From: a virus
Virus record (IMG/VR): IMGVR_UViG_3300023094_000026
Coordinates: 1-37,142 of that record
Direction: 5' to 3' (one strand)
DNA length: 37,142 nt
The position numbers were made by a program, and so were the translations under genes. Every line of letters begins with the position of its first letter. Positions within the stretch are counted from its first letter, which is position 1. The notes under the pieces are model-generated. The model was given only the letters and a program-made list of their open reading frames with translations, was not told the origin of the DNA and searched no databases. Shown here piece by piece: positions 50 through 37,142 of this stretch.

Positions 50-1858
50 GTGCTTGGGCGCGCGGGGAGCTGGATTAATGGCGGTGGGGGTGGTGGGTCC
101 GGGGGCCTGCTCACGTCTGCACGATTCTGGTACTATCAAGATTTCGCTGCGGGCGCTGGTCCGGCGCTAACCATTACCCAGAACGAGAACGGAACTGGCG
201 GGACTTGGGTCGTAGGTAACATCGTTAACGGATCTGCCGTTGTTACAACCCAGTCTGGCGAGCCCATCTACGACAACGCTGCGGCACTTCCGGTTGACCT
301 GGTTAAAGTGCAGTCCCATGTGGGCGATGCAGTAGTTTTAAATTCCACCCCTGCCGTGGGTCAAGGTCCGGTGCGGATTTGGTACCTATACGCAACGGCT
401 GCCGATCAGGCAGCAGAAGACATGGAGATCGCGCCACGGTTCGTGAAGGAGGAGCGCTCGGAGTTTCTCGACGCCCGATACCTTAACGATGCCTTAAACC
501 TGTCAGACTTGCCGGACGTAGACGCGGCCCTCACTAACCTGGGGTTCACTGACCAGGCTGCTGGAAACGTGCTTCTCGGGGATGGACTTAAGAACTTCAC
601 CTCGGACGCCGATCTATTCTTTGATATCTCCAACACCCGTCTTGGCGTAGGAACCAATACTCCCGGACAGACATTGGATGTAAGCTCTGATACCAATCCC
701 ACGATCTTGCTGCGGACTCAGTCTACGAGCATACCCGACCTTAGGTTCCAGGCGGCCCGTGCGGCTAACGCCAACCTGCAAAATGGCGATGACATTGGAC
801 AGCTCTCTTTCTTTGGTAGAAACGCTGGCGCGACGAACGAGATGGTTAACGTGTTTGCCGAATACACTGGAGACGGGACCACGCGCACGGCTGACTTTGT
901 CATTGAAGCCTCTAATGCTGGAGCACCCGCCGAGAGGCTTCGGTTGTCGGGCGCCGGATTATTGACGGTTGGTGCTGCGAGCGTAAGCCAGGCCGGTGTG
1001 GTTGATGCGGTCGGCGTGCACGTTTCATCTTACCTCGCAGTAACCGAGACCGGTGGCGGAACTGATACCGTTTCCATCCTTGGCCCTGCGGCGGTTACGT
1101 CCTCGTACTCTATCTACCTTCCAGGAACACAAGGCGCTGCGGGCACAACCCTGATAAACGATAGCGCCGGTAATCTTACTTGGGCCACGGCTGGCACTGG
1201 TGCGGTGGACCCAGGAACCGCAGGTCGGCTTGCGCTGTATCCGGCTACCGGAGACACGGTAGACGATATATACGTCCAGAACGCAAACAACATATCGGTT
1301 GTAATTGATGCGCATAGCTCTCTTGCTACGGCTCGGTCCTATACGATCCCCGATGCGGGAGACAGCGCATTCTTTATTATGGGGGAGGGAGACCAAAGCA
1401 TTAACGGCAGTAAGACCTTCTCTCTTGCTGCCATTTTTAACGGGGGTATTGCCCTTACGGAGACCGGTGGTGGCAGTGATACGGTTACGGTGAATGCCGC
1501 CGCCGCCAGCGCCGCCTACGCCATCGTTCTTCCTGATGCGCAAGGTGGCGCAGGAACTACCCTTATTAATAACGGCTCTGGGGCGCTCTCTTGGGGCCAA
1601 GGCATTACCTATAAAGCGGGTGATGTGAATCTGTCGGCCACGGCCCTCTCGGTAGCGGTTACTTTTGCTACGGCAATGGCTAGTGCTAACTACACTCCGA
1701 CGTGTTCTTTCCGCAACACCGTGGATGCAGACCCCGTGTACCAGCCCTATACGATCATTGCCCAGAGTACGGCTGGATTCACAGTGGAGTGGAACGACCC
1801 CATCCAGGGCTCAAACGTAGAACTTCTATGGCAGGTGGTATCGCATTATGATCCGTAA
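50..1858 (+). CDS. Tail fibre-like protein with two internal repeats
   Basis: A 602-residue protein rich in Gly, Ala, Thr and Ser with no membrane segment and no signal peptide. It starts at GTG after a GAGGGGGG purine stretch, right behind the upstream stop. A Gly-rich hinge (residues about 11-19) follows the N-terminus. A motif of the type TETGGG-DTV ... Y-I-LP--QG-AGTTLIN--SG-L-W occurs twice, at about residues 331-377 and 470-516; this pattern is common in phage tail fibres and fibre-like bacterial adhesins. The last ~90 residues look like a beta-rich receptor-binding tip. It contains a single cysteine, unlike the exported protein encoded next. Fibre role is inferred from repeats and context. 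Confidence 0.75.
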   Translation: MLGRAGSWINGGGGGGSGGLLTSARFWYYQDFAAGAGPALTITQNENGTGGTWVVGNIVNGSAVVTTQSGEPIYDNAAALPVDLVKVQSHVGDAVVLNSTPAVGQGPVRIWYLYATAADQAAEDMEIAPRFVKEERSEFLDARYLNDALNLSDLPDVDAALTNLGFTDQAAGNVLLGDGLKNFTSDADLFFDISNTRLGVGTNTPGQTLDVSSDTNPTILLRTQSTSIPDLRFQAARAANANLQNGDDIGQLSFFGRNAGATNEMVNVFAEYTGDGTTRTADFVIEASNAGAPAERLRLSGAGLLTVGAASVSQAGVVDAVGVHVSSYLAVTETGGGTDTVSILGPAAVTSSYSIYLPGTQGAAGTTLINDSAGNLTWATAGTGAVDPGTAGRLALYPATGDTVDDIYVQNANNISVVIDAHSSLATARSYTIPDAGDSAFFIMGEGDQSINGSKTFSLAAIFNGGIALTETGGGSDTVTVNAAAASAAYAIVLPDAQGGAGTTLINNGSGALSWGQGITYKAGDVNLSATALSVAVTFATAMASANYTPTCSFRNTVDADPVYQPYTIIAQSTAGFTVEWNDPIQGSNVELLWQVVSHYDP

Positions 1859-2723
1859 TCTTTTAGTCCTCTTACTTCTTATCCCATCGCTCGCCAACGC
1901 GGCAGCATTCCAGTACGGCGGCGTGCGGTTTGACGTAGCCAATACGGCCACGACAGCGGGAACAACCACCTTAACCAATGCCTCTAAGCAGGAGCAGCGC
2001 TTCACCGGTACGACAACGCAGACCGTGGTCCTACCTGATGCCACCACTCTGTCCACGGGGTACTGGTATACCATCTCTAATTCCTCGACGGGTTTGGTGT
2101 CGGTGCAGGCTAGTGGTGGCGGAGCGCTGGCTGGCGTCCCGGCTGGATCTTCCCTGTCGTTCGTTCTCTTCACGAACTCAACGGCAGCGGGTGTGTGGTT
2201 CCCTCAAGGAGAGCCCCCTTTATCGGTGGCCTCCCCGGACTCTGGTTATGTTAATGCACTAAACTCTTTAGAGACGGATGGGCTACAGACCCAGGTTCGT
2301 ATCTTGGTTGGGGACTCAGGATCTGGTGGCGTAGCGGGCGTGGCCCCGGCTCCATCCGCAGGAGACGGCGCGGCTGGAAAGTACTTGTCAGCCACTGGCG
2401 CATATCTTGTGCCTACCGGAACTGGGATTCGCGGCGCCTATGTTGAGTGCGATGGAAGCTCCCAGGTATTAGCGTCCACCACTCCTTCCTGGATTACTTC
2501 TGTCGGAAATATTTCTGGCGGACAGTGCATTGTTACGATCACTGGTGGCGTGTTTTCTGCTGCGCCATTTTGTATCGTCTCGGGAGCCGTTAACGCCACA
2601 AATGACGTGGCGAAGGTTTCTGATCCCACCACTTCAACCTATCTTAGAACTCGCGCCATGTCGGCGGCCTCTGGCTCTGACTCTACATCTTATAACTACT
2701 ACGTTATGTGTATGCCTCAGTAG
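1848..2723 (+). CDS. Exported fibre-like protein with Sec signal peptide
   Basis: A 291-residue protein whose ATG overlaps the end of the tail fibre gene by 11 nt. Residues 1-18 form a classical Sec signal peptide: basic MIRN, a Leu/Ile core, then SLANA with probable cleavage after Ala18. The mature part is Gly/Ser/Thr/Ala-rich like a fibre, with a Tyr-rich C-terminus ending VMCMPQ. It has four cysteines, all in the last third (about residues 198, 224, 242 and 289), compatible with two disulfides. A signal peptide on a tail-module protein is unexpected. It could be a secreted receptor-binding or surface-display protein. Function is not established by sequence. Confidence 0.7.
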   Translation: MIRNLLVLLLLIPSLANAAAFQYGGVRFDVANTATTAGTTTLTNASKQEQRFTGTTTQTVVLPDATTLSTGYWYTISNSSTGLVSVQASGGGALAGVPAGSSLSFVLFTNSTAAGVWFPQGEPPLSVASPDSGYVNALNSLETDGLQTQVRILVGDSGSGGVAGVAPAPSAGDGAAGKYLSATGAYLVPTGTGIRGAYVECDGSSQVLASTTPSWITSVGNISGGQCIVTITGGVFSAAPFCIVSGAVNATNDVAKVSDPTTSTYLRTRAMSAASGSDSTSYNYYVMCMPQ

Positions 2724-3346: not shown

Positions 3347-3711
3347 ATATCATCAAGGCCGAGAAGCGTAAGCTACTCCAGGCTGTTACCTACAAGTCCC
3401 TCGACTATCTAATTACCGGATTTCTCACCGTGAATGCCCCCTTCCTTGTAACGGGAATTGTCGGAAAAATTTTTTCCATCATTTTAGATAAGGCCGTTTT
3501 AGGTCCTCTCTCGGAGTGGGCCGCCAAGGCGGGGTATTACTTTGCGGTAGACTTAGCGACCGCCGCCAAGGTCTCTAGCATTAAAGGCGCCCTAGAAGAC
3601 CTGCGGGTTTTTGAGCGCAAGTATGACCCATCTAGGCCCATGACTCCGGAGGAGAAGGAGGCTAATGACAAAGCGAACAAAGATATTGATGATGCTATTG
3701 GCTTTGATTAG
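3334..3711 (+). CDS. Membrane protein of the presumed lysis cassette (holin candidate)
   Basis: 125 residues from GTG at 3334, chosen because AGGAG lies six bases upstream; the frame is open from 3301 without a better signal. After a charged N-terminus (VEEVDIIKAEKRK) two hydrophobic segments follow (about residues 24-50 and 52-68), then a polar, acidic C-terminus (PMTPEEKEANDKANKDIDD). Two hydrophobic segments with a charged tail fit a class II-like holin, but there is no diagnostic motif. It overlaps the downstream lipoprotein gene by 47 nt. Confidence 0.6.
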   Translation: MEEVDIIKAEKRKLLQAVTYKSLDYLITGFLTVNAPFLVTGIVGKIFSIILDKAVLGPLSEWAAKAGYYFAVDLATAAKVSSIKGALEDLRVFERKYDPSRPMTPEEKEANDKANKDIDDAIGFD

Positions 3712-4009
3712 CTCGTCCTGCACCACCGTGCGGCTACCCGATGACCCGATCTTTACCATCAAGGGCAAGTTCGGGGCCCGTGTCTCTTATATGCGCGAGG
3801 AGTCTAAGGCGAAGAACCACGACATCTCTCTCGACGAGTGGAGGGCCATTGAGTACGGTAAGGCCTGCGTCTCTACGGACACTATTATTGGGTTGGTGGG
3901 AGCCATTAAGAAGATGTGCTCGGAGAACGCTACGACGTGCTACTGGTTTCGTAAGGAAGTTAAGTTAGCCACGGACGTCTTGAACGAAGTGGCACCGGAG
4001 GAACAATGA
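3665..4009 (+). CDS. Lipoprotein (outer-membrane spanin candidate)
   Basis: 114 residues; GGAGG directly precedes ATG. The N-terminus is a lipoprotein signal: MTKRTK, a Leu/Met/Ile core, then ISSS-Cys19, so the mature protein would be acylated at Cys19. Three further Cys lie in the mature part. Embedding of its start in the preceding membrane-protein gene (47-nt overlap, different frame) resembles Rz/Rz1-type organisation. It is longer than many o-spanins and not Pro-rich, so an alternative is a surface lipoprotein that blocks superinfection. Confidence 0.65.
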   Translation: MTKRTKILMMLLALISSSCTTVRLPDDPIFTIKGKFGARVSYMREESKAKNHDISLDEWRAIEYGKACVSTDTIIGLVGAIKKMCSENATTCYWFRKEVKLATDVLNEVAPEEQ

Positions 4010-21041: not shown

Positions 21042-21682
21042 AGCCCGTCCTAGAGCGGGTCTTGGATAAAAACGGTGAGGAGTCGGTCCATTTCCACCCC
21101 ACCGCTCGCATGCAGCTCTTCGCTATTAAGAAGTCCGAGTCCCCTGGCCTTGGGGACGGTGATATTGCCAAGGAAATGAACATCGATCCCCAGCTCCCTC
21201 GTAGGTGGGCCGAGCGCTATGGCCGTCACTACCTCGAATGGCTAGAGGAGTACGTTGAGTCTAACGTCACCGGTAACGAGGCCTTGGTCCTAGAGCGTGT
21301 AGGTATGGTGCAGGCTGTTCAGCGGAATAACTACAGTTTCTGGCGCGACATGGCCAAGAAGCACGGCGTGATTAAGGAAGAGGTTAAGGACACAACGCAC
21401 ATAACCATCAATACCGATTTTAGCCATATTTTCGTAGGAGCAGATTTTAATGATGCAAGAAGGAAGATCCTGGACGCCTACAGAGGCCTGGGCAACAAAA
21501 CAGGACCTGGAGTGGTTGATGTTGCTCATGAGCGACTCCAAATATGCGAAGGACGCGAGGATTCAGGAGTTGGCAGTATGCAAGATGGACCCGTGGAGGT
21601 GGTTAACCCACTGGGTGAAGACCGAGGACACGCAGAACAAGGAGAACCCGTTCCAGCCGTTCCCAGGAAAAGTACACCTTGA
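21038..21682 (+). CDS. terS: Small terminase subunit
   Basis: 214 residues from GTG at 21038 (GGAGG four bases upstream, GTGA overlap). An HTH-like unit is visible (GDGDIAKEMNIDPQLPRRWAERYG, about residues 40-65 here split by loops), followed by helices LEEYVESNVTGNEALVLERVG and KKHGVIKEEVKD, a common TerS region. TerS binds the packaging site and feeds DNA to TerL. Its frame runs on 233 nt inside the TerL gene (C-terminal ~75 residues are unusual in composition), so the true end may be functionally dispensable. Confidence 0.72.
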   Translation: MKPVLERVLDKNGEESVHFHPTARMQLFAIKKSESPGLGDGDIAKEMNIDPQLPRRWAERYGRHYLEWLEEYVESNVTGNEALVLERVGMVQAVQRNNYSFWRDMAKKHGVIKEEVKDTTHITINTDFSHIFVGADFNDARRKILDAYRGLGNKTGPGVVDVAHERLQICEGREDSGVGSMQDGPVEVVNPLGEDRGHAEQGEPVPAVPRKSTP

Positions 21683-22163
21683 GGTCCTAACCCGCTACTG
21701 GCAGCAAGAGCAGTACCTTCTTGTGCCTAAAACCCGGCAGGTAACCGCCACGTGGCTCTTTGTTGCCCTCTACTTACACGACTCCATGTTCTACCCCTCA
21801 AGATCGACCATTTTTCAGTGTAAGATTGAAGACGACTCCGACGCTAACCTGAGGCGCGCCGTGATGATTCATGAGAACCTCCCCGATTGGCAGCGTACCT
21901 GGCAGCCGATGCACTACACTTTCTGTAACGCGGAGTTTCCGCGCTCAAGATCCACCATTTTGGCGGTGGCCGCAGGGGCTAAGCACTTCCGGCAGCGCAC
22001 GCTCTCCGGGGCCATGATCGATGAAGCTGCGTTTTGCGAGGAATTGGACGAGGTGCTTGCTGCCGCTAAGCCCGCCCTCGGCAAGATCGGTAGATTTACG
22101 GCCCTAAGCTCGGCCACGCCCAGCATCTTCGGCTCTCTCGTACACGACCTCGTGGGCGCATAG
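21450..22163 (+). CDS. terL: Large terminase, N-terminal ATPase part (split gene)
   Basis: 237 residues. CKMDPWRWLTHWVKTED at 44-60 is the usual TerL entry motif. An adenine/Walker A-like element PKTRQVTATWLF (93-104) is a deviant form lacking the usual Gly-Lys; Walker B is AMIDEAAF (188-195), and the coupling motif SSATPS (220-225) follows. The frame then stops at residue 237, where intact terminases continue into the nuclease domain. AGGAG lies nine bases before ATG; a later start at 21519 is possible. The nuclease half is encoded 1.15 kb downstream. Confidence 0.87.
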   Translation: MMQEGRSWTPTEAWATKQDLEWLMLLMSDSKYAKDARIQELAVCKMDPWRWLTHWVKTEDTQNKENPFQPFPGKVHLEVLTRYWQQEQYLLVPKTRQVTATWLFVALYLHDSMFYPSRSTIFQCKIEDDSDANLRRAVMIHENLPDWQRTWQPMHYTFCNAEFPRSRSTILAVAAGAKHFRQRTLSGAMIDEAAFCEELDEVLAAAKPALGKIGRFTALSSATPSIFGSLVHDLVGA

Positions 22164-22362
22164 AAAAAACTGGTAGAATCGCTCCTCCGCCCTCAGAATA
22201 AAAGGTGGCATTACGCCTCTTGCCACCGCAGGGGATAGTGCTGGACCCCCTTAGGTTTTGAGGTGCGCGATTAACTCCCGCTCACTAGGTTAACTGTTCC
22301 AGTCCTACCGACCCAAGGCGTGAAGGGGCGCACTTCGGTCATCTAACACTTTAGGAGTGCCC
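22164..22362 (+). other. Structured 199-nt spacer inside the split terminase
   Basis: No reading frame. Several stems can form: GGTGGC/GCCACC around 12 nt (22204 region), GGGG/CCCC (22231 region), TGGA/TCCA across ~60 nt, and GACC/GGTC near its end. The density of pairing is above that of neighbouring DNA and recalls self-splicing or regulatory RNA, but I could not place the conserved core of a group I or group II intron. Confidence 0.4.
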
Positions 22363-23316
22363 ATGGACGGTATTGACGACGTAGCGAAGAAGACGCTGGC
22401 TGATCGGGTTTCCGAGTTGCCTGGGAAGGCTGACCGTGAATCGCGTTTAGCGAAAAATAAGCGCTCACAGTTAAGCGGGCCGCCCACAAATGACCTTAAT
22501 GACTTTGATTACGAGAGGCAGCGCTGGCTTACCCCAGAAGAAAGCATGGCAAGAAAAAAAGAGACCCTTAAGAAAATTCGCGGTTTTGATGAAGATGTGG
22601 TCGCCCCTCATGGCAGCGCACTAAAGAACGCCGATAGCACGGCCCCCGCGTACAAGAAGGTCAAGAAGCCTGCCGTAAAAGATGCTGCTGAGAGTAGTTT
22701 GTCCATGACGCGTGGTGTAACAGATTCTAACCCCTTTGCCAAGCTAGAAAATGACTTGCCGCGTGGTGGTCGTGCAATGCGCGTAGCCGCCGAAGAGGGT
22801 CTGGAGCAAGAGGGCAAGCAGGTAGCTAAAAAGGGCCTGGGTAAGCTTGGTCGGATGGCGACCGCAGGTCTGGCTGGTGGCGCCGTGGGTCTTGGGGTCA
22901 ATGCCCTTATGGAGGGCCTAGACGCCGAAGAGACCGGCTCCGAGGAAGAAGACATGGATGTGGCCTCCCAGCGCCAGTTCGAGAAGTCTAGCGCCAAGAT
23001 CAAGGCCAATAAGCCCGCATTGAAGGCCGCCGTAGAGGATGCCGATGAGCCAGACGGTGAGGCCGGTGTTCAAGGCCGCAAGCTCCCATCTACCCTAAAA
23101 GCATCGACCAAGAAGAACTACCAGAACGTGAAGCCTGGAAAAGTTATGGCTGGCCCAAAAGTTAAGCCGGACAGCGATATTGAGAAAGAGTTCCACGTGG
23201 AACTGGCCCGTAACTACGGTGAGCCCGCCGATGAGGCCAACCCCTTCGATAAAGTCGTGGGCCGCGTTATGAAGGATGAGTTTGGGAAGGCCGCTAAGCG
23301 AGTCAATAAGCGCTAG
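22363..23316 (+). CDS. Unknown protein inserted between the two terminase parts
   Basis: 317 residues from ATG at 22363 with AGGAG five bases upstream (GTG at 22357 is also in frame). Strongly charged, Lys/Glu/Asp-rich and probably disordered in places, with one Gly/Ala-rich hydrophobic segment at about residues 165-190 (MATAGLAGGAVGLGVNALM) like those in phage ejection proteins. It is not an HNH, GIY-YIG or LAGLIDADG endonuclease by eye. Its TAG is immediately followed by the ATG of the nuclease part, in the same frame. Structural or ejection protein is one possibility. Confidence 0.6.
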   Translation: MDGIDDVAKKTLADRVSELPGKADRESRLAKNKRSQLSGPPTNDLNDFDYERQRWLTPEESMARKKETLKKIRGFDEDVVAPHGSALKNADSTAPAYKKVKKPAVKDAAESSLSMTRGVTDSNPFAKLENDLPRGGRAMRVAAEEGLEQEGKQVAKKGLGKLGRMATAGLAGGAVGLGVNALMEGLDAEETGSEEEDMDVASQRQFEKSSAKIKANKPALKAAVEDADEPDGEAGVQGRKLPSTLKASTKKNYQNVKPGKVMAGPKVKPDSDIEKEFHVELARNYGEPADEANPFDKVVGRVMKDEFGKAAKRVNKR

Positions 23317-24375
23317 ATGAGCGTAGTAGCCGAGGCCATGCGTAAGTGGCGAGATATCGCTATAGACGCACCGGAAGACGCCTTAGAGGCTCCGATCCCC
23401 GTCCCTGAGGGCATGCGGGCCTGGAAGAACGCTAAGAACGAGTTTGTGGTGGTGGCCTGCCACTACTCAGCCGACCCAGAAAAACGCAATGACGAGTGGT
23501 ACAAGGGCGCCTGCAAGGGTCTTAGGCCCGACCAGATCGAACGCGAGCTAGAGCTTAACTTTGACTCCAAGGCCGGAACTAAGGCGTTCCCCTTCCTGGA
23601 GCGCAACGAGAACCTCTACCGCCTAGATCCCCCCATGCCCATCCCCCATAACTGGAAGATCGTGGTGGGCCTAGACTACGGAGCCCGGAACCCCACCTCC
23701 GTGCACTGGTACGCCATTGACCCTAACCGTAGGTTCTGGTGCTTTGATGAGTTTTATAAGCCCCTAAACGAGCTAAAGGGTGGCTTACCGGCCCTGGCTG
23801 AGTATCTACTCAAACACCCTTACTACGCCCGCATCCGGCACATCGTGGCCGACCCCTCGATCTTCAATAAGGGCCAGAACGTGATCACGACGAAGGAGAC
23901 GAGCGGCAAGTCCTGGGGCACACTCATGTCTATTGCGGAGCTGCTGCAAAAAGAGGGGATTCATAAGCTCCAGCGAGCCAATAACGACCGGATGGCCGGG
24001 ATGGCTCGGGTCCACCAGATGTTCAACTACCGGGGCGAGAAGGATACCAAGCCCTACGCCTTTATCGGTCGCAAGTGTCATAAGGCCTGGTGGGAGTTAA
24101 GCAACCTCATCTACAAGCTGGACGACAAGGAGAACAAAAACGCGGACGAGGACGTGGTTAAGCGAAATGACCACTTCTTTGATGAGTTTAAGTATGCTCT
24201 CCTCTCCGAAGACATCCCGGCGGAAGCCGCCGTGGACCAGACGCACACCGGCATAACGATGGAATCTCTGGAACAAGAGATCGATGATCGTTATGCTAAT
24301 GAGAATCAGGACCCCTTTGCTTGTTCCTTCGCTGAGCTAGATGGCTCCGGCGATTACTTCATGGATGGATTTTAA
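23317..24375 (+). CDS. terL: Large terminase, C-terminal nuclease part (split gene)
   Basis: 352 residues. After a short leader it enters the TerL linker (MRAWKNAKNEFVVVACHYSADPEK, about 33-56) and then the RNase H-like nuclease: GLDYG with Asp120, HIVADPS with Asp179, and DHFFDEFKYAL with Asp285/289, the metal ligands that cut concatemeric DNA. It starts directly after the TAG of the inserted gene. There is no Walker motif in it. It must act with the separate ATPase part, or be joined to it at the RNA or protein level. Confidence 0.87.
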   Translation: MSVVAEAMRKWRDIAIDAPEDALEAPIPVPEGMRAWKNAKNEFVVVACHYSADPEKRNDEWYKGACKGLRPDQIERELELNFDSKAGTKAFPFLERNENLYRLDPPMPIPHNWKIVVGLDYGARNPTSVHWYAIDPNRRFWCFDEFYKPLNELKGGLPALAEYLLKHPYYARIRHIVADPSIFNKGQNVITTKETSGKSWGTLMSIAELLQKEGIHKLQRANNDRMAGMARVHQMFNYRGEKDTKPYAFIGRKCHKAWWELSNLIYKLDDKENKNADEDVVKRNDHFFDEFKYALLSEDIPAEAAVDQTHTGITMESLEQEIDDRYANENQDPFACSFAELDGSGDYFMDGF

Positions 24376-28509: not shown

Positions 28510-29583
28510 ATGGCTCTGAATTACAATTCGCTATTAGCGTCTACAATCAAGTATTACAAAAAAGGGTTCGTAGACAACATCATCAAGGACTTTATCCTCC
28601 TCGCCGCTCTCGGTGACAAGGATTTGGCTCCTTCTGTGTTCAAGATGCGTAAGCCCGAAGGCGATTTCGCCGAAGGCATTAAGCTCGTAGACGGTGGTGA
28701 GAAGATCTTCTGTCCTCTGATGTACGCTGAGAACATGACTGTTCAAGGTTACGCCGGATACGACACCCTGGACATCACTCCTACCGACCCTTTCACGGCT
28801 GCTGAGTACGACTGGCGTCGTATTGCCGGTTCCGTGAACATGGACAACGACCGCCTGGATAAAAACAGAGGCTCGGCTGTAAAGCTATTCGACCTCATGG
28901 ACGGCATGCTGAAAAACTTGAAAGTTTCGATGCAGCAAAAAGTGAACGATATGCTCTTGAAGCCTAAGCTTCTTGGCACCAAAGAGCCCCTTGGTTTGAT
29001 GGACATCGTAAAAGATGACCCTTCGACCAACCCAGCTTCCGGCGCCTTGGGTGGTATCGACGCTGTTGCTAACGCCTGGTGGAGAAACCAAGCCATTGAC
29101 TTGGCTGCGGCCTCCTTCGGTACGGATCAAACGGGCGCAGGCCCTAAGGCTCTCCGTAAGTTGATCCGCAACACCACGTTCGGCGCAGAAGAAACCCCCA
29201 ACCTCATCATCGGCGGCGACAGCGCGTTTGAGAGCCTGGAAGATACCATGCTCAACCAGACCCGCTACATCTCCGAAGGTATGGCGCAACAACTCCTGGG
29301 TAAGAGCGGCTTCGACGCCCTCATGTTCAAGGGTATTCCAGTTGTGCGTGAAAAGCGTATCGAGCCGCTTCGCTTGGAAGCCGGTCTCTCGGGAGACGCC
29401 TTCTACGTACTCAACACCAAGTACCTCAAACTCTGGGGTATGAAGCACCGTTGGTTCGAGCCTTCCAGCGTAAAAGAGCCTGTGAACATGGACACCCAAG
29501 TACAGTCCATCATCACGGCTTGCCAGTTCGTGACCGACAACCGTCGTACCAACGGCGTATTGTTCAACATCGCGGCTGTATAA
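28510..29583 (+). CDS. Major capsid protein
   Basis: 357 residues with AAGGAGAAGAG before ATG. Placed between scaffold and decoration genes. It has an N-terminal helix, and a patterned core with DGGEKIFCPLMYAENMTVQGY (about 60-80), a helical stretch with DNDRLDKNRGSAVKLFDLMDGML, and WWRNQAID...LRKLIRNTTFG; ends NGVLFNIAAV. Consistent with an HK97-fold capsid of podoviruses. Codon use is the most biased in the window, as expected for the most abundant protein. Confidence 0.88.
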   Translation: MALNYNSLLASTIKYYKKGFVDNIIKDFILLAALGDKDLAPSVFKMRKPEGDFAEGIKLVDGGEKIFCPLMYAENMTVQGYAGYDTLDITPTDPFTAAEYDWRRIAGSVNMDNDRLDKNRGSAVKLFDLMDGMLKNLKVSMQQKVNDMLLKPKLLGTKEPLGLMDIVKDDPSTNPASGALGGIDAVANAWWRNQAIDLAAASFGTDQTGAGPKALRKLIRNTTFGAEETPNLIIGGDSAFESLEDTMLNQTRYISEGMAQQLLGKSGFDALMFKGIPVVREKRIEPLRLEAGLSGDAFYVLNTKYLKLWGMKHRWFEPSSVKEPVNMDTQVQSIITACQFVTDNRRTNGVLFNIAAV

Positions 29584-29656: not shown

Positions 29657-30178
29657 ATGAAACTGATTCTAGCTCTAGCGTTGAGCCTGTGCCTCGGCAC
29701 TCCTGCTCACGCCTATCTCTCGGCCTCTGGCAACGACCCCTCCAGCGGATCTTACGACACCGAAACCAAGGTGGCCGTAAAGTCCGAAGTGGCGCTCTAT
29801 TCGGACGCTATCGCTGTAGGACAGGGCCTCTACTACTCTGAAACTGAGCTGACCGGCCTTTACAAGGTAAGCCGTTTCTACTCGGGTACCGGCTTTGACG
29901 CCGCTTCCGCTAAGCAGGTAGCCTGCATCGCGGCTCGCGCGGTGGCAACGGGTGACACGGCTGGATTTCCTTGCGTGACCCGTGGTTACGTAGCGAATGC
30001 CATCTATGATGCTGCGGCCCCTATCTTGGTAGGTAACTACCTCTGCGTGGGCACTGCCGCCTCCGTTAAGGGTAAGCTCATCTCCTGCGGAGCCTCGGTT
30101 GTAAGCCCCTTTGTGGCGCTTGAAGCTAAGGCATCCGGCTCTGGTACGGACCTTGAGGTCTCGGTAGAGAGCAAGTAG
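29657..30178 (+). CDS. Exported decoration-like protein with signal peptide
   Basis: 173 residues from ATG at 29657, AAGGAG upstream. Residues 1-19 are a clear Sec signal (MKLILALALSLCLGTPAHA|YLSAS). The mature protein is small, beta-rich, with VTRGYVAN, VGNYLCVGT and ASGSGTDLEVSVESK-like ends that resemble capsid decoration proteins with SH3-like folds, and it sits in the usual decoration position behind the capsid gene. The mature chain has four cysteines (QVACIAARA, FPCVTRG, NYLCVGT, LISCGAS). A signal peptide would direct it to the periplasm, contrary to a cytoplasmic capsid role. Confidence 0.72.
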   Translation: MKLILALALSLCLGTPAHAYLSASGNDPSSGSYDTETKVAVKSEVALYSDAIAVGQGLYYSETELTGLYKVSRFYSGTGFDAASAKQVACIAARAVATGDTAGFPCVTRGYVANAIYDAAAPILVGNYLCVGTAASVKGKLISCGASVVSPFVALEAKASGSGTDLEVSVESK

Positions 30179-31320
30179 TGCGATTTGCAAAGTACGGGGT
30201 TGGGGGAATGTTCTTCCTCCTACCCCTCTTTTTTCTTCTCCCTCCGCTAGCTAACTCCTTTGAGGCACAGATCCAAGGGGCCAAGCTCATGCTCGTCTTC
30301 GGGCTGGGGAACCTGTTCTTTGCCGTGTACCTAGGCAAGAAGATCCATCCCTCCTTCTTTTTGATTCATGCCGCGTTTACTGTGGGCGCCCTCTTTACGG
30401 GCTTTGGGGCTATGCAGCTCTACCCCTTCGTATACTGGTCAGCCGCCGCAGGTCTTACCCTTCTCTTTTTGACTCTGGAAGAGGAGACGCAGGTCCTTCT
30501 CCTTCGCTGCGTGGTCTGGGGGGGTGTGGCTTCCTCTATGCTCGCTTTTCTACAGGTCTTAGACCTTGACCCTATCCTTACCTATGCGCCCGGAATATCG
30601 GACGCTGACCGGGTATTACCGGTGGGGCTTATGGGTCAGACGACTAAGTTTGGGGCGCTGCTGGCGATCCTGATCGGCGTAGCCTTCGGACTTAAGGACT
30701 ATTCGGCGGCATTACTTATGACGGTCGCAGCGGTCGCCACGAATAGCTCATTCACCTACCTGGCGGTATTTGGAGCGCTTATAGTGAACGCTCGCTACCT
30801 GCTGGGCCGTTTTGTGACTGTCGCAATTTGCATCAGCTTCTTTTTTACTGCCGCAATCCTCTGGGCCTTCTCGCCCGGATCGGCGCTGCTCTTAGATAAC
30901 GGGCGCTACCTCGTGTGGTGGACGACGCTAGAGGCCTGGTGGAATGGGCCTAAGCTCTTGGGGTTTGGTCCCGGCTCCTTTGCTTATCTATACGCGGAGA
31001 ACTTTCAGCCCAAGTCCCTGGTCTACGGGTCTTTCCTCCAGGCGCATAACGATTACATCCAGGCCCTGTTTGAGTTTGGCCTCATGGGCGCAGCCGTGAT
31101 GGCGGCATTGCTCTTCTTTATTGGGCGACACTTCTGCCTGTACTGGTGGGGCTCACGCTACCAGGAGAAGGCCCCTCTAGTGATCGCTGCCGAGGGCGGA
31201 CTGATTGCTATCGTGCTTAACGGGATGGGGAATTTTCCTTTCCAGTTAGCCCCGCACTTTTTGCTCGCGACCATTTGTTTTGCTATCATAGTCACATACC
31301 AACCACGGAAGGACTGGTGA
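30178..31320 (+). CDS. O-antigen ligase/polymerase-like membrane protein (Wzy_C type)
   Basis: 380 residues, GTG overlapping the upstream TAG (TAGTG). Ten or more hydrophobic segments. The characteristic large periplasmic loop is at about 232-298: NGRYLVWW (Arg243), LLGFGPGSFAYLY (261-272), QAHNDYIQALFEFGLMG (288-304, with His290). In O-antigen ligase and Wzy proteins these GR-x-x-x-W, G-x-GPG and H-N-x-(Y/F)-x-x-x-L-x-E-x-G motifs mark the active loop. Likely modifies or extends surface polysaccharide of the host. In phages Wzy-like genes cause seroconversion, usually in lysogeny modules; here the gene is inside the virion operon. Confidence 0.85.
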   Translation: MRFAKYGVGGMFFLLPLFFLLPPLANSFEAQIQGAKLMLVFGLGNLFFAVYLGKKIHPSFFLIHAAFTVGALFTGFGAMQLYPFVYWSAAAGLTLLFLTLEEETQVLLLRCVVWGGVASSMLAFLQVLDLDPILTYAPGISDADRVLPVGLMGQTTKFGALLAILIGVAFGLKDYSAALLMTVAAVATNSSFTYLAVFGALIVNARYLLGRFVTVAICISFFFTAAILWAFSPGSALLLDNGRYLVWWTTLEAWWNGPKLLGFGPGSFAYLYAENFQPKSLVYGSFLQAHNDYIQALFEFGLMGAAVMAALLFFIGRHFCLYWWGSRYQEKAPLVIAAEGGLIAIVLNGMGNFPFQLAPHFLLATICFAIIVTYQPRKDW

Positions 31321-31323
31321 GCC

Positions 31324-32037
31324 ATGGCAGCCAATGACCTTTTTTCGTTAGCGGACCTCAGTAACGAGGTGTGCCTTAACATCGGTTCCGTTGATGATTT
31401 AACTCAGCTCCAGGCACGCAAGTGGATTAACCGTGCGCTGATTATGTTTGAGGAGATGGGCTACTGGCCCTGGCAGTACGTATACCAGCAGCCGCTCGCT
31501 ACGGTCGCCAATCAACAGACCTTGGACGTTCCTGACATCATCAAGATCAACTCGCTTTTTATGACGAGCCCGATTCAGCGGAACCTTGTTCTCGTGGAAG
31601 ACCGACAGTTCCGCGCGATGTACCCGAATGACACCTTCACCGGCACCCCCTACTTTTACCGCATGAATGGGATGTCCAAGACCGTGATCAACACCACGAT
31701 TATTGGTCTTTACCCCATTCCTAACGCCGCCTACGACCTACTTTACGACGGCGTGCGCCCCATTACTCTTCTCGTAAACGACGAGGACGATATTCGACAG
31801 GTTACGGGCATGCCGTCCAATCTCGTGGCTCTCGTCGTGGAGATGGCGACGGCCATTGGCTACAAGCAAGAGGACGACGTTAAGGCGAGGGAGCAGCTAG
31901 AGGAAGCCGTGGGGCGATTAAAGAAGGCCTACGAGGACGCCACCACTCAGATTAATGATCGATTGATCATGGTCTCTAGCGAGTACGACGATTACACGGC
32001 GTATCAAGATCCCCTTTTTCCTCCGCAGTATAGCTGA
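31324..32037 (+). CDS. SU10-type adaptor (head-tail connector)
   Basis: 237 residues, immediately after the ligase-like gene with GGTGAGCC before ATG. N-terminal pattern (DLSNEVCLNIGSVDDLTQLQARKWINRALIMF) with W-x-x-x-A, then WPWQYVYQQPLATVANQQTLDVP, a structure of helix bundle and small barrel, and a C-terminal helix (REQLEEAVGRLKKAYEDATTQI). This is the arrangement of podoviral SU10/DUF-type adaptor proteins between portal and nozzle. Position just before the nozzle supports it. Confidence 0.75.
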   Translation: MAANDLFSLADLSNEVCLNIGSVDDLTQLQARKWINRALIMFEEMGYWPWQYVYQQPLATVANQQTLDVPDIIKINSLFMTSPIQRNLVLVEDRQFRAMYPNDTFTGTPYFYRMNGMSKTVINTTIIGLYPIPNAAYDLLYDGVRPITLLVNDEDDIRQVTGMPSNLVALVVEMATAIGYKQEDDVKAREQLEEAVGRLKKAYEDATTQINDRLIMVSSEYDDYTAYQDPLFPPQYS

Positions 32038-32067
32038 TATTTCAATTACTTAGCAAAGGATTGCTAA

Positions 32068-34251
32068 TTGTTAGACCAGAGAACTAAAGTCGTAGTAAAA
32101 TTGTTTAAGGGCCAGCAATCAGGCATGCCCATAGAGTCTTATGGCTTTGATTCGGCCTATGCCGTAAGTAACTTCGTCCTCAAAGAGGGCGCGTTGGCTC
32201 GCGTAAACGGCGGCACGATCTTCGCTAACGTACTAGAAGATCAATTCGGCGGAGTTACCTCCCTTCACCGCTTCAAAAATCTATGGATGGCTCAGAGAGG
32301 GACTTCGATTGCGTCCGAGACCTCCGAGGGTAACGCTACGTTCGTTGATGTATTCACCGGACTAGAGAGCACTGAGAAGATGATGTCTTCTCAGTGGCGA
32401 GACCGCATTACGCTCGTTAACGGGGTAGAGGCCAAGTTCCTGCTTAACCGCAAGATGGACTCCCTCGACGCTAATTATCGTACCGGGAACTTAGGCATGG
32501 ACCCACCGGACTATGATGGGTGGAATGCGCTTACGTGGAACGAAACGTCGGGAGAGATCGCTAACGGCACGTACTACTATGTCATCACGGTGTTTGACGG
32601 AGAGACCAACTCGGAGAGCCCTGGCTGCGGATCAGCGGTTTCGGTGGATGGCCTATTCGAGCTGTCCATGAACGCGGGCGAGCTTAACGGCACAAACTTT
32701 GGCGTGCTCGGTAAAGAAGTGGTGGTCGACTCGGCCCCAAGCTCAATTACTTTTGACCGAGACCCACTCATTGCTTACCTGCAATCCCTCCAGGCGACGA
32801 ACCCGCGAGTTACAGACTTTAGGGTATACCGCTGCCAAAAGGACCTGGACACGCAGCTCTATACAACCCTCTTTGCTGTGCCGAACGCCCAAGAGACTAC
32901 GAAGCCTACGATCATTAACATCGCGGAGTTTATCTCTACCACTGCGCCATACACTTTTATCGATAACACCGCTACGGCAGACCTTCCTGCGATCTCTCCT
33001 CCGGACAATAACTCGCCCCCTCCCACTATGGAGCGCTTGCGCGTGGCCCGTGAGAAGATGCAGGTGGGCGTGGACTCTGTGGTGGCCCCATTTGAGCCGT
33101 CGGAAAACTCTGGGTTCCTGCACACCAAGTTCTTCCGTGACCAGTTGTTTGGCATCGGCGCCAGGTCTTCTGGCTGGGATCGCACCAGCGTAGACTTTCC
33201 CGTGTATAACGAGGTGGGGCGCAATAACTTTAGCGACATCCTTATGGGCTCCGAGGTCTATCAGCCCGACTACTACCCCTACATCTGGGAGATCGCACGC
33301 GGCGATGGCCAGATCTCTACCGCTCTGGGCGTTCTGGGAGATACGGCCCTTCTCGTTTTTAAAGAGAAGAGCACTTACTACCTAACGGGATCGTCCCCCT
33401 CCGATTACATCTTGCGGGTGCTGGACACTAACAAGGGATGCGTGAACGCCTCTACCGTGCAGGAGACGCCGATTGGGGTTATATGCCTAGACCGTTCTGG
33501 GTTCGTGCTCTTCAATAAGATCGGACAGGGCGAGCGCATTTCTGTCCAAGTGCAGGACGTGATCGATAGCATCATCTTCCCAAGGTCCGAGACGTTTTAC
33601 TCCTTCTATGACCCAAAAAATCAGCGCTACTACTGCTCAGTAGTGGTCCCTGGGTCTGAGACCCCAAACCTTACGTGTTGCCTGGACCTAGACTCCATGG
33701 AATGGACGTTTTCGGAAGGGATGGAAGGGCTTTCCCGCTTAGCGGACACTGACTCCAACGCTGAATATGTGGAGCTGCTTGGCTCTAAGGGAACGGGGCG
33801 CCTGGTTGACCTGGCAGACCCAGAGATTATCAGCTTTGTGGGCGAGCCCATTTACTCGTCTTGGACCTCTGGCCCCATCGACTTTGGTGATGACCAGCAC
33901 AAGAAGAAAATCAGGTGGCTGTATTTAAGGGCTAAGGCCAATTCCAACTGGACGGTCACGATTGAGATCATTCCCGACTACGACGAGTCAAGGAAGTATG
34001 TGGTCGAAAATTTCAACGTCCTCTCCTCCCAGAGCCTTTGGTATTCCTCGGACTTAGCGTCGGATGGCACCCTTATTTGGGATGAGGGTAATTGGGCGTT
34101 CGCAGGGTTAGAGCGCAAGATCGTCAAGATCCCTGTCGTATCCAAGGGCTACACGTTTCAGGTTAGGATCATTAACCAGGACGTGATCGAGAACCGTTGG
34201 GGCTTTGTGATTGAGGGCATCTCGGCGGAAGCCGATATGTTAGGCAAATAA
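32068..34251 (+). CDS. Tail nozzle/tubular protein (beta-propeller)
   Basis: 727 residues from TTG at 32068 (AAGGA eight bases upstream). Beta-rich throughout with repeated blade-like strands; Ig-like region (TYYYVITVFDGETNSESPG, about 170-190), FRVYRCQKD, then FKEKSTYYLTG and a Y-S-F-Y-D-x-x-x-x-x-Y blade and a C-terminal KIRWLYLRAKANSNWTV unit. Nozzle proteins form the distal tube of short tails and carry fibres. The TTG start is unusual for a virion protein made in large amounts. Confidence 0.82.
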   Translation: MLDQRTKVVVKLFKGQQSGMPIESYGFDSAYAVSNFVLKEGALARVNGGTIFANVLEDQFGGVTSLHRFKNLWMAQRGTSIASETSEGNATFVDVFTGLESTEKMMSSQWRDRITLVNGVEAKFLLNRKMDSLDANYRTGNLGMDPPDYDGWNALTWNETSGEIANGTYYYVITVFDGETNSESPGCGSAVSVDGLFELSMNAGELNGTNFGVLGKEVVVDSAPSSITFDRDPLIAYLQSLQATNPRVTDFRVYRCQKDLDTQLYTTLFAVPNAQETTKPTIINIAEFISTTAPYTFIDNTATADLPAISPPDNNSPPPTMERLRVAREKMQVGVDSVVAPFEPSENSGFLHTKFFRDQLFGIGARSSGWDRTSVDFPVYNEVGRNNFSDILMGSEVYQPDYYPYIWEIARGDGQISTALGVLGDTALLVFKEKSTYYLTGSSPSDYILRVLDTNKGCVNASTVQETPIGVICLDRSGFVLFNKIGQGERISVQVQDVIDSIIFPRSETFYSFYDPKNQRYYCSVVVPGSETPNLTCCLDLDSMEWTFSEGMEGLSRLADTDSNAEYVELLGSKGTGRLVDLADPEIISFVGEPIYSSWTSGPIDFGDDQHKKKIRWLYLRAKANSNWTVTIEIIPDYDESRKYVVENFNVLSSQSLWYSSDLASDGTLIWDEGNWAFAGLERKIVKIPVVSKGYTFQVRIINQDVIENRWGFVIEGISAEADMLGK

Positions 34252-34529
34252 TGGCCAAGGGAGTGATTGAAGTCGCCCGGAACGCCATTGTCCAGCCGAA
34301 CCGCTCAACCAGCCGAAAGTCCCAGAAGCGGCAGGGCTTAAAGGAAGAGTACGACGGCGCGCTGGTGAACAACGAACTGGACTACGTTCACGAGCGGATT
34401 AACCTCGTGGTGGTCGAAGTGGCCGCCGTCGCGGACCTTGACCCGGCGGCCAGTACAGCAGAGATCGTAGCCCGGATAAATTACTTAACGGAAACAATGA
34501 GGAGCGCAGGTTTACTAAAGCGGGAGTAG
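34251..34529 (+). CDS. Small virion-module protein, unknown
   Basis: 92 residues, ATG overlapping the nozzle stop (TAATG). Basic start (MAKGVIEVARNAIVQPNRSTSRKSQKRQGL), then helices (YDGALVNNELDYVHERINL; AEIVARINYLTETMRSAGLL). Family not recognised; small helix-rich proteins here could link nozzle and fibres or be a tail-fibre adaptor. Confidence 0.6.
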   Translation: MAKGVIEVARNAIVQPNRSTSRKSQKRQGLKEEYDGALVNNELDYVHERINLVVVEVAAVADLDPAASTAEIVARINYLTETMRSAGLLKRE

Positions 34530-34547
34530 CCCATAGAATATAAGACA

Positions 34548-35258
34548 ATGAAAAACTTTATCAAAAACAACGCTATCTCGGTGTTCGTGTCGCTTCTAGC
34601 GCTTGGCGGACTATCTTACGCCGACGTGATCGTGCGCCCCTATGGACCAACCGACTATGCTGGTGGTGCCAAGGCCGTGGGCTCCAAGGTGAATGCGGAG
34701 TTTCAGAACATTGTCTCGTGGCTAAACGGCGGTAACATTTCGTCGAATAACATCTCAGCTTTTGGCGTGGCGAGCAGCAATATTGCCGACAACGCCGTGA
34801 TTACTTCCAAGATCGCTAACAACGCGGTGACCAAGGCTAAGCTTTCCGGAAACTACACTCAAACGGGATTTAGTGGATATCTATCCATCACCGACACGAG
34901 CACGACGGCGCTTCTGGTGACAAATAACTCTACAACCGTTACGACCTCTGGCCGTCCAGTGCTGGTGACTTTTGGGGGGTCGGCCCTTACCTTCGGATGC
35001 CCAGCTCCCATCATTGGTAGCTATATTGGATCTAACGGTGATGATGACAACCAGGGATATTTGCAGATTAGGCGCAATGGATCTGCCTCGGCGTTGTTCA
35101 ACTTACAGCCGGGGTACTCCCCCTGCTCTAATTATTCTTACGTCGATTTTCCAGCCGCCGGTACCTACACGTACCAGGCCTCTTTACGGGTTGATTATAC
35201 GTCCGGAGGATACACCGCCAGCGTGTGTAGCTGTAACATGATTGTGCAGGAGCTATGA
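34548..35258 (+). CDS. Exported fibre-like protein 1 (signal peptide)
   Basis: 236 residues. Signal peptide MKNFIKNNAISVFVSLLALGGLSYA with cleavage after about Ala25. The mature part begins DVIVRPYGPTDYAGG and contains KVNAEFQNIVSWLNGGNISSNNIS, the helical start motif of many phage fibres (N-A-E-F-N-x-I), then ITSKIANNAVTKAKL. The C-terminal domain (TTSGRPVLV ... YVDFPAAGTYTYQ) resembles a jelly-roll (C1q/TNF-like) tip. The mature chain has four Cys (FGC, SPC, VCSC). Strong paralogue of the next gene. Contrast the cytoplasmic-type tail fibre at 50-1858. Confidence 0.72.
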   Translation: MKNFIKNNAISVFVSLLALGGLSYADVIVRPYGPTDYAGGAKAVGSKVNAEFQNIVSWLNGGNISSNNISAFGVASSNIADNAVITSKIANNAVTKAKLSGNYTQTGFSGYLSITDTSTTALLVTNNSTTVTTSGRPVLVTFGGSALTFGCPAPIIGSYIGSNGDDDNQGYLQIRRNGSASALFNLQPGYSPCSNYSYVDFPAAGTYTYQASLRVDYTSGGYTASVCSCNMIVQEL

Positions 35259-35986
35259 AGGGCACCTTCTGGGTTATTATTGCTTCGGTCTTAACGCTTT
35301 CGTCGTTGTCGGTGGCGAGCGTGATCGTGCGTCCTTACGGACCCGTGGACTATGCAGCCGGAACGCTAGCGGTAGGGCCAAAGGTAAATGCCGAATTCGA
35401 GAACATCACCTCGTGGCTTAATGGTCAAAATATTGGCAGCGATAATATCGCGACCGGTGGCGTGGCTTCGGTAAACTTTAAAGCAAGCTCCCTCATCACT
35501 AGAACCTTCGCAGCAGAGTCCGTGCCTAAGACGAAAACCCCAAGTAACCACTCTCAGAGCACCGGCTCCGGTGATTTTGTGATTGTCAGCACGGGAACAA
35601 CTACGGTGCCCGGCCTCAGCGCTTCTATTACGACCTCTGGACGCCCTGTTTTGGTTTCGCTCCAAGGCGGAGACGCAACGGTGGTTTGTCAACTTGGGTT
35701 CATTGATTATGGAAACGTACAGAGCCAGTTTGGCAACAGCACCGACGATAAGATTGCGCTAGGAGTGGTTAGGGACGGAGTGACCATCAGTAACTCTCGC
35801 ATTGGCCGTATTGAGGACCTGGTGGTTGATTCAATCCAGCGCTTCCCGTGTGGGTCGTTTCGTTTTGTGGACTTCCCATCAGCCGGAACCCATACGTATT
35901 CTATTATTGCGCAGGCGTCTAAGGCCGGGTCCAGCGATCCAGCGATGAGAATTTGTAACTGCACCACCGTTTTACAGGAGCTTTGA
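35255..35986 (+). CDS. Exported fibre-like protein 2 (paralogue of the preceding gene)
   Basis: 243 residues, ATGA-coupled to its paralogue. Signal peptide MKGTFWVIIASVLTLSSLSVA, cleavage after about Ala21. Mature part begins SVIVRPYGPVDYAAG and KVNAEFENITSWLNGQNI, clearly duplicated from the neighbour, while the middle (about 90-150) diverges. C-terminal tip again TTSGRPVLV ... FVDFPSAGTHTYS. Four Cys (VVC, FPC, ICNC) at matching places. Diversified paralogues with conserved ends suggest variation of receptor or partner binding. Confidence 0.72.
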   Translation: MKGTFWVIIASVLTLSSLSVASVIVRPYGPVDYAAGTLAVGPKVNAEFENITSWLNGQNIGSDNIATGGVASVNFKASSLITRTFAAESVPKTKTPSNHSQSTGSGDFVIVSTGTTTVPGLSASITTSGRPVLVSLQGGDATVVCQLGFIDYGNVQSQFGNSTDDKIALGVVRDGVTISNSRIGRIEDLVVDSIQRFPCGSFRFVDFPSAGTHTYSIIAQASKAGSSDPAMRICNCTTVLQEL

Positions 35987-35987
35987 T

Positions 35988-36608
35988 ATGGGATTTTTTA
36001 AAGACTTAAGTAACTCCCTAGGGTTCACCAAGGCGGACGCGGAGACGGTAGACCCAGAAGCGTATTCGGATCTCTACCAGAAGGCCCTGGCCGAGCTAGA
36101 GGGTGTGGGCCGTAATACGGCATCGTCCACCAACAAAGACCTAATCAATAGCACCCTCCAGGGACAGCTAGAGAACTTGGATAATAACGCCGCTGGCCGC
36201 AAGATGAACTACATGGAGGATATGTCGAGGGGACATGCTTCCGAGGTTAATAATATCGCGCGGGCTACGGGCGGAACGGGCACCTTAAAGCAAGCGCTTC
36301 GCACTGGCGGCGGCGCGGCTAATGACCAGTACCAGCGCAACACCTCTCGCGGGCTGAATGACCTCTACTCCCAGGCCACCAAGGATTTGAGCAGCCTGCA
36401 AGGCGTGCAGGGTAACATGTTCAATCAAGACCTCAATAAGGCCAATAGCGTAGCAAATATCTACCAAACCGAACTTAACTCTCGTCGTGGACAGGCCAAT
36501 ACGAACTCTGATAACCGGAACAACGTAGCCCAGAACCAGGGTAACCTTTTGGCCGGAACCATCGGAGCTGGCGCCCAGATGTTTGGCGCGAAGAAAGCGA
36601 AGGCGTAA
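35988..36608 (+). CDS. Ejection/internal virion protein
   Basis: 206 residues, ATG one base after the previous stop. Helical and Asn/Gln/Ala-rich with GTGTLKQALRTGGGAANDQYQRNTSRGLNDL (about 95-125, split here by many Gly), ending NLLAGTIGAGAQMFGAKKAKA, the short hydrophobic Gly-rich tail plus Lys seen in T7 gp14-like ejection proteins. Likely packaged inside the capsid and injected to help form the DNA channel. Confidence 0.72.
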   Translation: MGFFKDLSNSLGFTKADAETVDPEAYSDLYQKALAELEGVGRNTASSTNKDLINSTLQGQLENLDNNAAGRKMNYMEDMSRGHASEVNNIARATGGTGTLKQALRTGGGAANDQYQRNTSRGLNDLYSQATKDLSSLQGVQGNMFNQDLNKANSVANIYQTELNSRRGQANTNSDNRNNVAQNQGNLLAGTIGAGAQMFGAKKAKA

Positions 36609-36611
36609 GGC

Positions 36612-37142
36612 ATGGCTAGAATTTATCAGTCAAAATCTCCTCTCGCCTCTCTGGTGGAGGGGTACTTTACGGGGAAGAAGTACTCCGATGAGCGTGGCGA
36701 CCGCGATGAGGACGTGCGCTTTCGTAATACCGAGCAGCGTCGATCAGCCGAAGAGAAGGGCTGGGACAGCTTCCGTAAGCCCACACTAGATGGCGAAGGC
36801 CGTTTTTCCGGTTACGAAGAAGATGCTCTTAATAAGGCGAAGGCCACCGCGTATGCTCGGCGTAACTTGCCGTCTCTCCAGAAGAAGCGCTCTCCCGTTG
36901 AGGCGGCGATGTCCTCTCGCGCGGACTTGTCTCTCGGCGAGCCCTCGATTGGCCTAAACTCTGCCGAAGAGGCACAGAAGAATATGGCGGCCCGTCTTGC
37001 GCCCCCCCCCGCGCCCCCAACGCCTCCTCCCGTTAAGCCATTGATCTCGTCTCCCGCTGACCAGAAGGCAGCCGAGGCTGTGATTACCAAGGCGACCGAG
37101 ACGCCTGAGGCCCCAGCCCCAAGCGAGGCTGGAAAGCTCGCG
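36612..37142 (+). CDS. Internal virion protein, N-terminal part (runs off the window)
   Basis: At least 177 codons from ATG at 36612, open to the window end. Charged helical start (SPLASLVEGYFTGKKYSDERGDRDED), then Pro-rich low complexity (APPPAPPTPPPVKPL) and an Ala/Glu-rich stretch. Following an ejection-type gene it is probably a large internal virion protein such as T7 gp15/gp16 analogues. Incomplete at the 3' end. Confidence 0.6.
   Translation, partial: MARIYQSKSPLASLVEGYFTGKKYSDERGDRDEDVRFRNTEQRRSAEEKGWDSFRKPTLDGEGRFSGYEEDALNKAKATAYARRNLPSLQKKRSPVEAAMSSRADLSLGEPSIGLNSAEEAQKNMAARLAPPPAPPTPPPVKPLISSPADQKAAEAVITKATETPEAPAPSEAGKLA

Follow-up and report, generated by a model that had tools for sequence, protein, structure and literature searches.

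The late operon of a little-known tailed virus, IMG/VR record IMGVR_UViG_3300023094_000026 (the window, that is, the whole stretch of 37,142 bases), appears to export several proteins of fibre or coat type and keeps a membrane enzyme for sugar chains in the same gene block. Four of its genes, here P0001 to P0004, encode proteins with a Sec-type signal peptide and four cysteines in each mature chain, and the membrane enzyme, a Wzy_C protein of the O-antigen ligase/polymerase superfamily, is encoded directly after P0002. The usual view is that tailed phages fold and assemble their fibres and coat proteins in the reducing cytoplasm. The exported set and the membrane enzyme within one block suggest instead that completion of some of the particle, or of a separate surface product, takes place outside this compartment. 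The account tentatively favoured here, at a probability of about 0.42, is that fibre and coat proteins with disulfide bonds reach their fold in the periplasm and are added to virions at about the time of lysis.

Signal peptides and cysteines of the late-operon set

The four late-module open reading frames that an earlier note on this DNA had singled out are present at the positions listed in Table 1. Its claim of a Sec signal peptide on each agrees with a rule-based test (positive n-region, uncharged hydrophobic core and the -3/-1 rule), which all four pass, as did 26 of the 28 known E. coli signal peptides used as controls. In the virion module of the window the test marked 5 of 17 genes, namely P0001 to P0004 and the first transmembrane segment of the Wzy_C protein. 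Among the 96 annotated genes in the virion modules of six related podophages it marked none (Fisher p 4e-5, with the Wzy_C membrane protein counted as the fifth window match). The only other match among the window genes tested was a lipoprotein-like gene of the lysis region at 3665-4009 (MTKRTKILMMLLALISSSC...), which carries three further cysteines, adjoins lysis-type genes and may encode an outer spanin. Weight-matrix scores were 15.5 for P0001, 10.1 for P0002, 8.6 for P0003 and only 4.5 for P0004, which makes the last the weakest case; the rule test on annotated genes was chosen because the weight-matrix predictor was noisy when run over all frames as a false-positive check.

Conservation across the predicted cleavage sites could be followed in one close relative and one paralogue pair. 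The relative is the contig L003 (10.7 kilobases), the sole close one found, with a capsid protein 74% identical to that of the window and a P0002 homologue at L003:6038-6559 that is 59% identical and retains the four cysteines and the signal peptide. Between the two P0002 proteins, 6 of 19 residues are identical in the signal region and 96 of 154 in the mature chain, and in both proteins the character of the signal survives, with basic residues at the start, then a hydrophobic core and an A-x-A site. Between the paralogues P0003 and P0004 the corresponding figures are 8 of 21 ahead of the cleavage site and 36 of 50 just after it. Such a step in conservation at the predicted site, seen in both pairs, is what functional signal peptides show, and Sec export and cleavage of P0001 to P0004 are probable on these sequence grounds.

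The translation starts differ in quality. The ATG of P0002 follows a good Shine-Dalgarno sequence (AAGGAG), that of P0001 overlaps the previous gene by 11 nucleotides, that of P0004 overlaps the stop of the preceding gene (ATGA), and that of P0003 lies 18 nucleotides past the previous stop behind a weak Shine-Dalgarno sequence. This last feature and the low weight-matrix score of P0004 could be taken to mean that starts were mis-called or that the N-termini are hydrophobic by chance. Such an artefact is hardly credible given that the exported genes alone amount to 4 of 17 in the window versus 0 of 96 in the relatives, that the signal peptide is kept in L003 and that conservation steps up at the cleavage site in both pairs.

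The count of exactly four cysteines in each mature chain was also correct (4, 4, 4 and 4), as was the description of the neighbouring fibre at 50-1858. The four mature proteins hold 16 cysteines in 860 residues versus 16 in 3261 for the other virion proteins (p 2e-4), about a four-fold difference in density. All four mature cysteines of P0002 are kept in the L003 homologue, and the one within its signal peptide is not; all four are likewise kept between P0003 and P0004 at 43% identity. Disulfides in P0001 to P0004 are what this pattern would predict, and the recurrence of exactly four per chain is partly coincidence. All four proteins have the feature, but because P0003 and P0004 are tandem paralogues (43% identical) they represent three independent families rather than four; shared ancestry among the three was looked for and none was detected.

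P0003 and P0004 in the fibre slot

The earlier description of the exported proteins as being of decoration or fibre type finds support for P0003 and P0004 only, by slot, motif and repeats. In podovirus ct52p938 (MW202803.1; L009), a relative by its capsid protein, the slot between the stabilisation protein and an ejection-like protein is taken by a fibre without a signal peptide (L009:10241-11209). A scan of viral contigs with a DNA pattern of the N-terminal motif returned two more intact fibres, one of them in IMGVR_UViG_3300035682_000090 (L021), which, found by the pattern alone, is a relative in its capsid, portal and stabilisation proteins and carries the fibre in the same slot. The fibres of L009 and L021 start with MAANATVPNSFSNG... 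and MATASIPNSFTNN..., respectively, and share the N-terminal motif of P0003. The first residues of the L009 fibre, PNSFSNGAATDAPAMNANFAAVLAWLN, align with those of mature P0003, PTDYAGGAKAVGSKVNAEFQNIVSWLN, at Z 6.6 (0 of 500 shuffles as high), and the whole proteins at Z 8.2; the N-terminus of the L021 fibre aligns with mature P0003 at Z 6.5, again with no shuffle as high. The match is in register, mature P0003 from residue 9 against residues 7-8 of the two fibres, so that both fibres, which have no signal peptide, begin within one or two positions of the mature P0003 start. The shared slot and the in-register motif make P0003 and P0004 slot- and motif-equivalents of ordinary fibres plus a signal peptide. 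The NIAxxAVxxxKI repeats of P0003 match tail-fibre PHROGs as well. Foldseek with a weak P0003 model ranked phage tail fibres on top (lambda-type gpJ and a cyanophage short fibre), a ranking given little weight because the root-mean-square deviation was at least 20 A and the TM score below 0.35.

The same correspondence bears on the idea that the N-termini are uncleaved membrane tethers, by which capsid, fibre and Wzy_C protein would gather at the inner membrane for membrane-associated assembly or for lipid-carrying particles. The hydrophobic cores are indeed clear, but the conserved even cysteine numbers suit an oxidising compartment, each of the four proteins has a -3/-1 cleavage site, and the predicted mature N-terminus of P0003 matches the actual start of ordinary fibres; this match and the cysteines in particular make tethering distinctly improbable.

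The motif also occurs in bacteria. Two tandem genes on plasmid pMtWR-220 of Meiothermus taiwanensis (L028:506-1402 and 1420-1992) encode a signal-type start followed by FxxGTxxxxxEVNANFxxL, with a BLAST E value of only 1 and with one of the two genes failing the strict rule test (early Glu). This pair (L028 506-1992) hints at a module common to exported bacterial proteins and phage fibres.

A signal peptide with the motif FxxGTxxxxxEVNANF in tandem plasmid genes is what might be expected if the window had recently captured host genes for exported proteins, their place in the late operon being accidental and their integration into phage biology still to come. In the phage records searched with P0001 to P0004, only repeat matches were obtained and no homologues of P0001, P0002 or P0004, which would agree with capture. 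Against it, P0002 and the Wzy_C gene keep their order and show amino-acid constraint in L003, and P0003 and P0004 replace the fibre in its own slot; recent capture is very unlikely on this evidence.

P0002, the Wzy_C gene and their surroundings

P0002 lies directly 3' of the major capsid gene, a slot that in Mx8, Mx9 and L005 holds a virion structural protein of phrog_29386. Gene order alone suggests a decoration role for it: a comparison with phrog_29386 gave no match (hhalign E 0.39). A resemblance to Mx8 p49 noticed by eye was rejected at the same E value, with a shuffle Z of about 0. For P0001, which follows the ordinary tail fibre, no relatives were detected, and a fibre role is without support from homology.

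The gene coupled to P0002 matches Pfam PF04932 over nearly the full profile length with E 7e-7 (29.6 bits, under the curated cut-off of 31.7), and its L003 homologue does so with E 2e-6 (27.9 bits, likewise under 31.7). A simple scan found about 8-9 hydrophobic segments, as in a polytopic membrane protein. The gene is kept in L003 in the same place at 38% identity, and the conserved order of P0002 and Wzy_C there is accompanied by amino-acid constraint. L021 has no counterpart of either gene, its capsid-to-tail gap leaving little room, so the pair behaves like an added unit. The Wzy_C superfamily includes O-antigen ligases, O-antigen polymerases and O-linked oligosaccharyltransferases, and by membership the window protein may have a glycan role. 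This coupled gene, like the paralogy of P0003 and P0004 and the presence of their motif in exported bacterial proteins, had been missed by the earlier note.

The Wzy_C gene fits two readings, addition to virions and a secreted or envelope product, as it could glycosylate the exported proteins or change a surface glycan to which progeny or rivals bind. On the second reading the exported proteins would be late envelope or secreted products rather than virion parts, for example receptor blockers, agents of superinfection exclusion, or free binding proteins that cover the dying cell or its debris and so keep progeny from sticking, acting together with a Wzy_C enzyme that changes surface glycan. 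This is the main rival, if a somewhat unlikely one. It draws on the coupling of Wzy_C to P0002 and its retention in L003, on the absence of this unit from L021, on the existence of exported bacterial proteins with a signal peptide and the same N-terminal motif, and on the fact that a phage-encoded Wzy can alter surface polysaccharide, as does the A. baumannii prophage Wzy (PMC9241936). It is countered by the position of the genes, which lie inside the virion operon instead of forming a separate moron, and by the fact that P0003 and P0004 take the place that an ordinary fibre has in two relatives.

Table 1. Genes of the exported set and other late-operon features of the window (a slash marks the probable cleavage site)
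Feature	Coordinates	Strand	Remarks
P0001, exported 4-Cys protein	1848-2723	+	follows ordinary fibre; signal MIRNLLVLLLLIPSLANA/AAF; site SLANA/AA
P0002, exported 4-Cys protein	29657-30178	+	signal peptide 1-19, MKLILALALSLCLGTPAHA/YLS; site TPAHA/YL; mature Cys 90, 106, 130, 144
P0003, exported, fibre-type	34548-35258	+	signal MKNFIKNNAISVFVSLLALGGLSYA/DVI; site GLSYA/DV; VNAEFxxIxxWLN motif; NIAxxAVxxxKI repeats; C-terminal beta domain with 4 Cys
P0004, tandem paralogue of P0003	35255-35986	+	signal MKGTFWVIIASVLTLSSLSVA/SVI; site LSVA/SV; same four Cys
Wzy_C protein (O-antigen ligase/polymerase superfamily), polytopic	30178-31320	+	overlaps P0002 stop (TAGTG)
Putative tail fibre, contrast case	50-1858	+	no signal peptide, one Cys
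Terminase piece, ATPase-like	21450-22163	late strand	
Terminase piece, nuclease-like	23317-24375	late strand	
Portal	from 24376	late strand	
Scaffold-like gene	from 27493	late strand	
Major capsid protein	28510-29583	+	phrog_9953, E 6e-44
Tail protein	from 31324	late strand	
Head-tail stabilisation/internal virion protein	32068-34251	+	upstream of P0003/P0004
Probable ejection/internal virion protein	35988-36608	+	downstream of P0003/P0004; by position and composition against L009:12029 and L021

The record has a GC content of 53.5%, and an exact terminal repeat was not found in it. An open reading frame at 36612-37142 (MARIYQSKSPLASLVEGYFTGKK...) continues past its end, which means that the record either is circular or breaks off within a late gene. 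The capsid protein shows distant kinship (about 19-30%) to those of Mx8, Mx9, BUCT555, a Bradyrhizobium phage and uncultured podoviruses, and scans of viral contigs with P0002, P0003/P0004, Wzy_C, the capsid protein and the C-terminal part of the terminase returned L003 as the only close relative. A family search with the probable ejection protein gave no significant match.

The large terminase is encoded by two genes, between which stands an unrelated gene (22357-23316) for a cysteine-free protein of 319 amino acids; the nuclease piece likewise starts as a separate gene in L003, but after a different gene, and no Rfam intron match was obtained in 21450-24375. Downstream of the lysis region, the gene at 4006-4695 matches phrog_4912 (tail fibre assembly) with E 4e-7 and phrog_27919 (unknown function) with E 8e-12. 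On the early strand, 16436-16996 matches phrog_3000 (unknown function) with E 4e-13 and by eye only is a possible peptidoglycan hydrolase.

Proposed periplasmic maturation and known systems

If the exported proteins do join virions around lysis, the podophage late operon would make P0001 to P0004 as a Sec-exported set. Once through the inner membrane, these proteins would be freed of their signal peptides, and their disulfides would form in the oxidising periplasm. Cleavage would leave P0003 and P0004 with the same N-terminus as the ordinary cytoplasmic fibres of related phages. Lysis would then mix the compartments, and virions complete in other respects would receive the exported proteins as fibres, spikes or coat proteins. 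The Wzy_C protein, coupled to P0002, would act on the same side of the membrane, where it could glycosylate the exported proteins or alter a surface glycan. The attachment step is suggested by slot and motif. A more specific form, in which assembly is split between a cytoplasmic head and tail and a set of Sec-exported, disulfide-bonded and possibly glycosylated fibres with an outer head protein, matured in the periplasm with a Wzy_C-type transferase and added at lysis, is unlikely as a whole.

Several points weigh against attachment at lysis. To our knowledge, fibre assembly after lysis is not established for tailed phages. The similarity of P0002 to the virion protein that takes its slot in Mx8-type phages is not significant, and the presence of the P0003 motif after signal-type starts in exported Meiothermus proteins means that the motif does not prove anchoring in the virion. 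AlphaFold models of P0002 and P0003 were too poor to judge disulfides (mean pLDDT, the predicted local distance difference test, 32 and 42), and neither a prophage nor a host came up when genome contigs were scanned for P0002 and the capsid protein.

The exported and probably disulfide-bonded set proposed earlier is well supported by sequence, and the interpretation placed on it partly so. If it is right, the addition of signal peptides and cysteine sets to fibre-slot genes beside a periplasm-facing glycan enzyme would point to one of two things: maturation of some of a tailed virion beyond the cytoplasm, or a late operon that yields a secreted product dedicated to binding. Each outcome would change the annotation of such genes and could offer disulfide-stabilised binding proteins made in the periplasm.

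The earlier statement that no system of this kind had been described agrees with the open-access papers searched, on a topic poorly searchable by keyword, in which neither such a system nor a natural tailed-phage virion protein described as Sec-exported was found. The engineered phage T7::PhoE (PMC5157022), with the PhoE signal peptide on the T7 major capsid protein, resembles P0001 to P0004 in having a signal peptide on a structural protein of a tailed phage; it differs in being artificial, in using the major capsid protein and in that no disulfides or export were shown. The A. baumannii prophage Wzy (PMC9241936) is, like the window protein, a Wzy-type membrane glycan enzyme carried by a phage, whereas the latter is encoded within a head-tail operon, coupled to a 4-Cys protein with a signal for export.

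Among virion proteins, p49 of Mx8 and Mx9 (phrog_29386) is similar to P0002 in size and in adjoining the capsid gene, but has no signal peptide and no significant sequence similarity. The L009 and L021 fibres share with P0003 the slot after the stabilisation protein and the N-terminal motif PNxFxN...NANFxxxxxWLN, and that of L009 also the IAxxAVTxxKI repeats; they differ from it in having no signal peptide and starting where mature P0003 starts. The Meiothermus plasmid proteins have the hydrophobic signal-type start, the N-terminal motif and the tandem arrangement of P0003 and P0004, but belong to a bacterial plasmid, have other C-terminal parts and show no virion genes beside them in the 3 kilobases read. 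Signal peptide, fibre and Wzy_C protein are each of a known type, and what is unusual is their combination and place.

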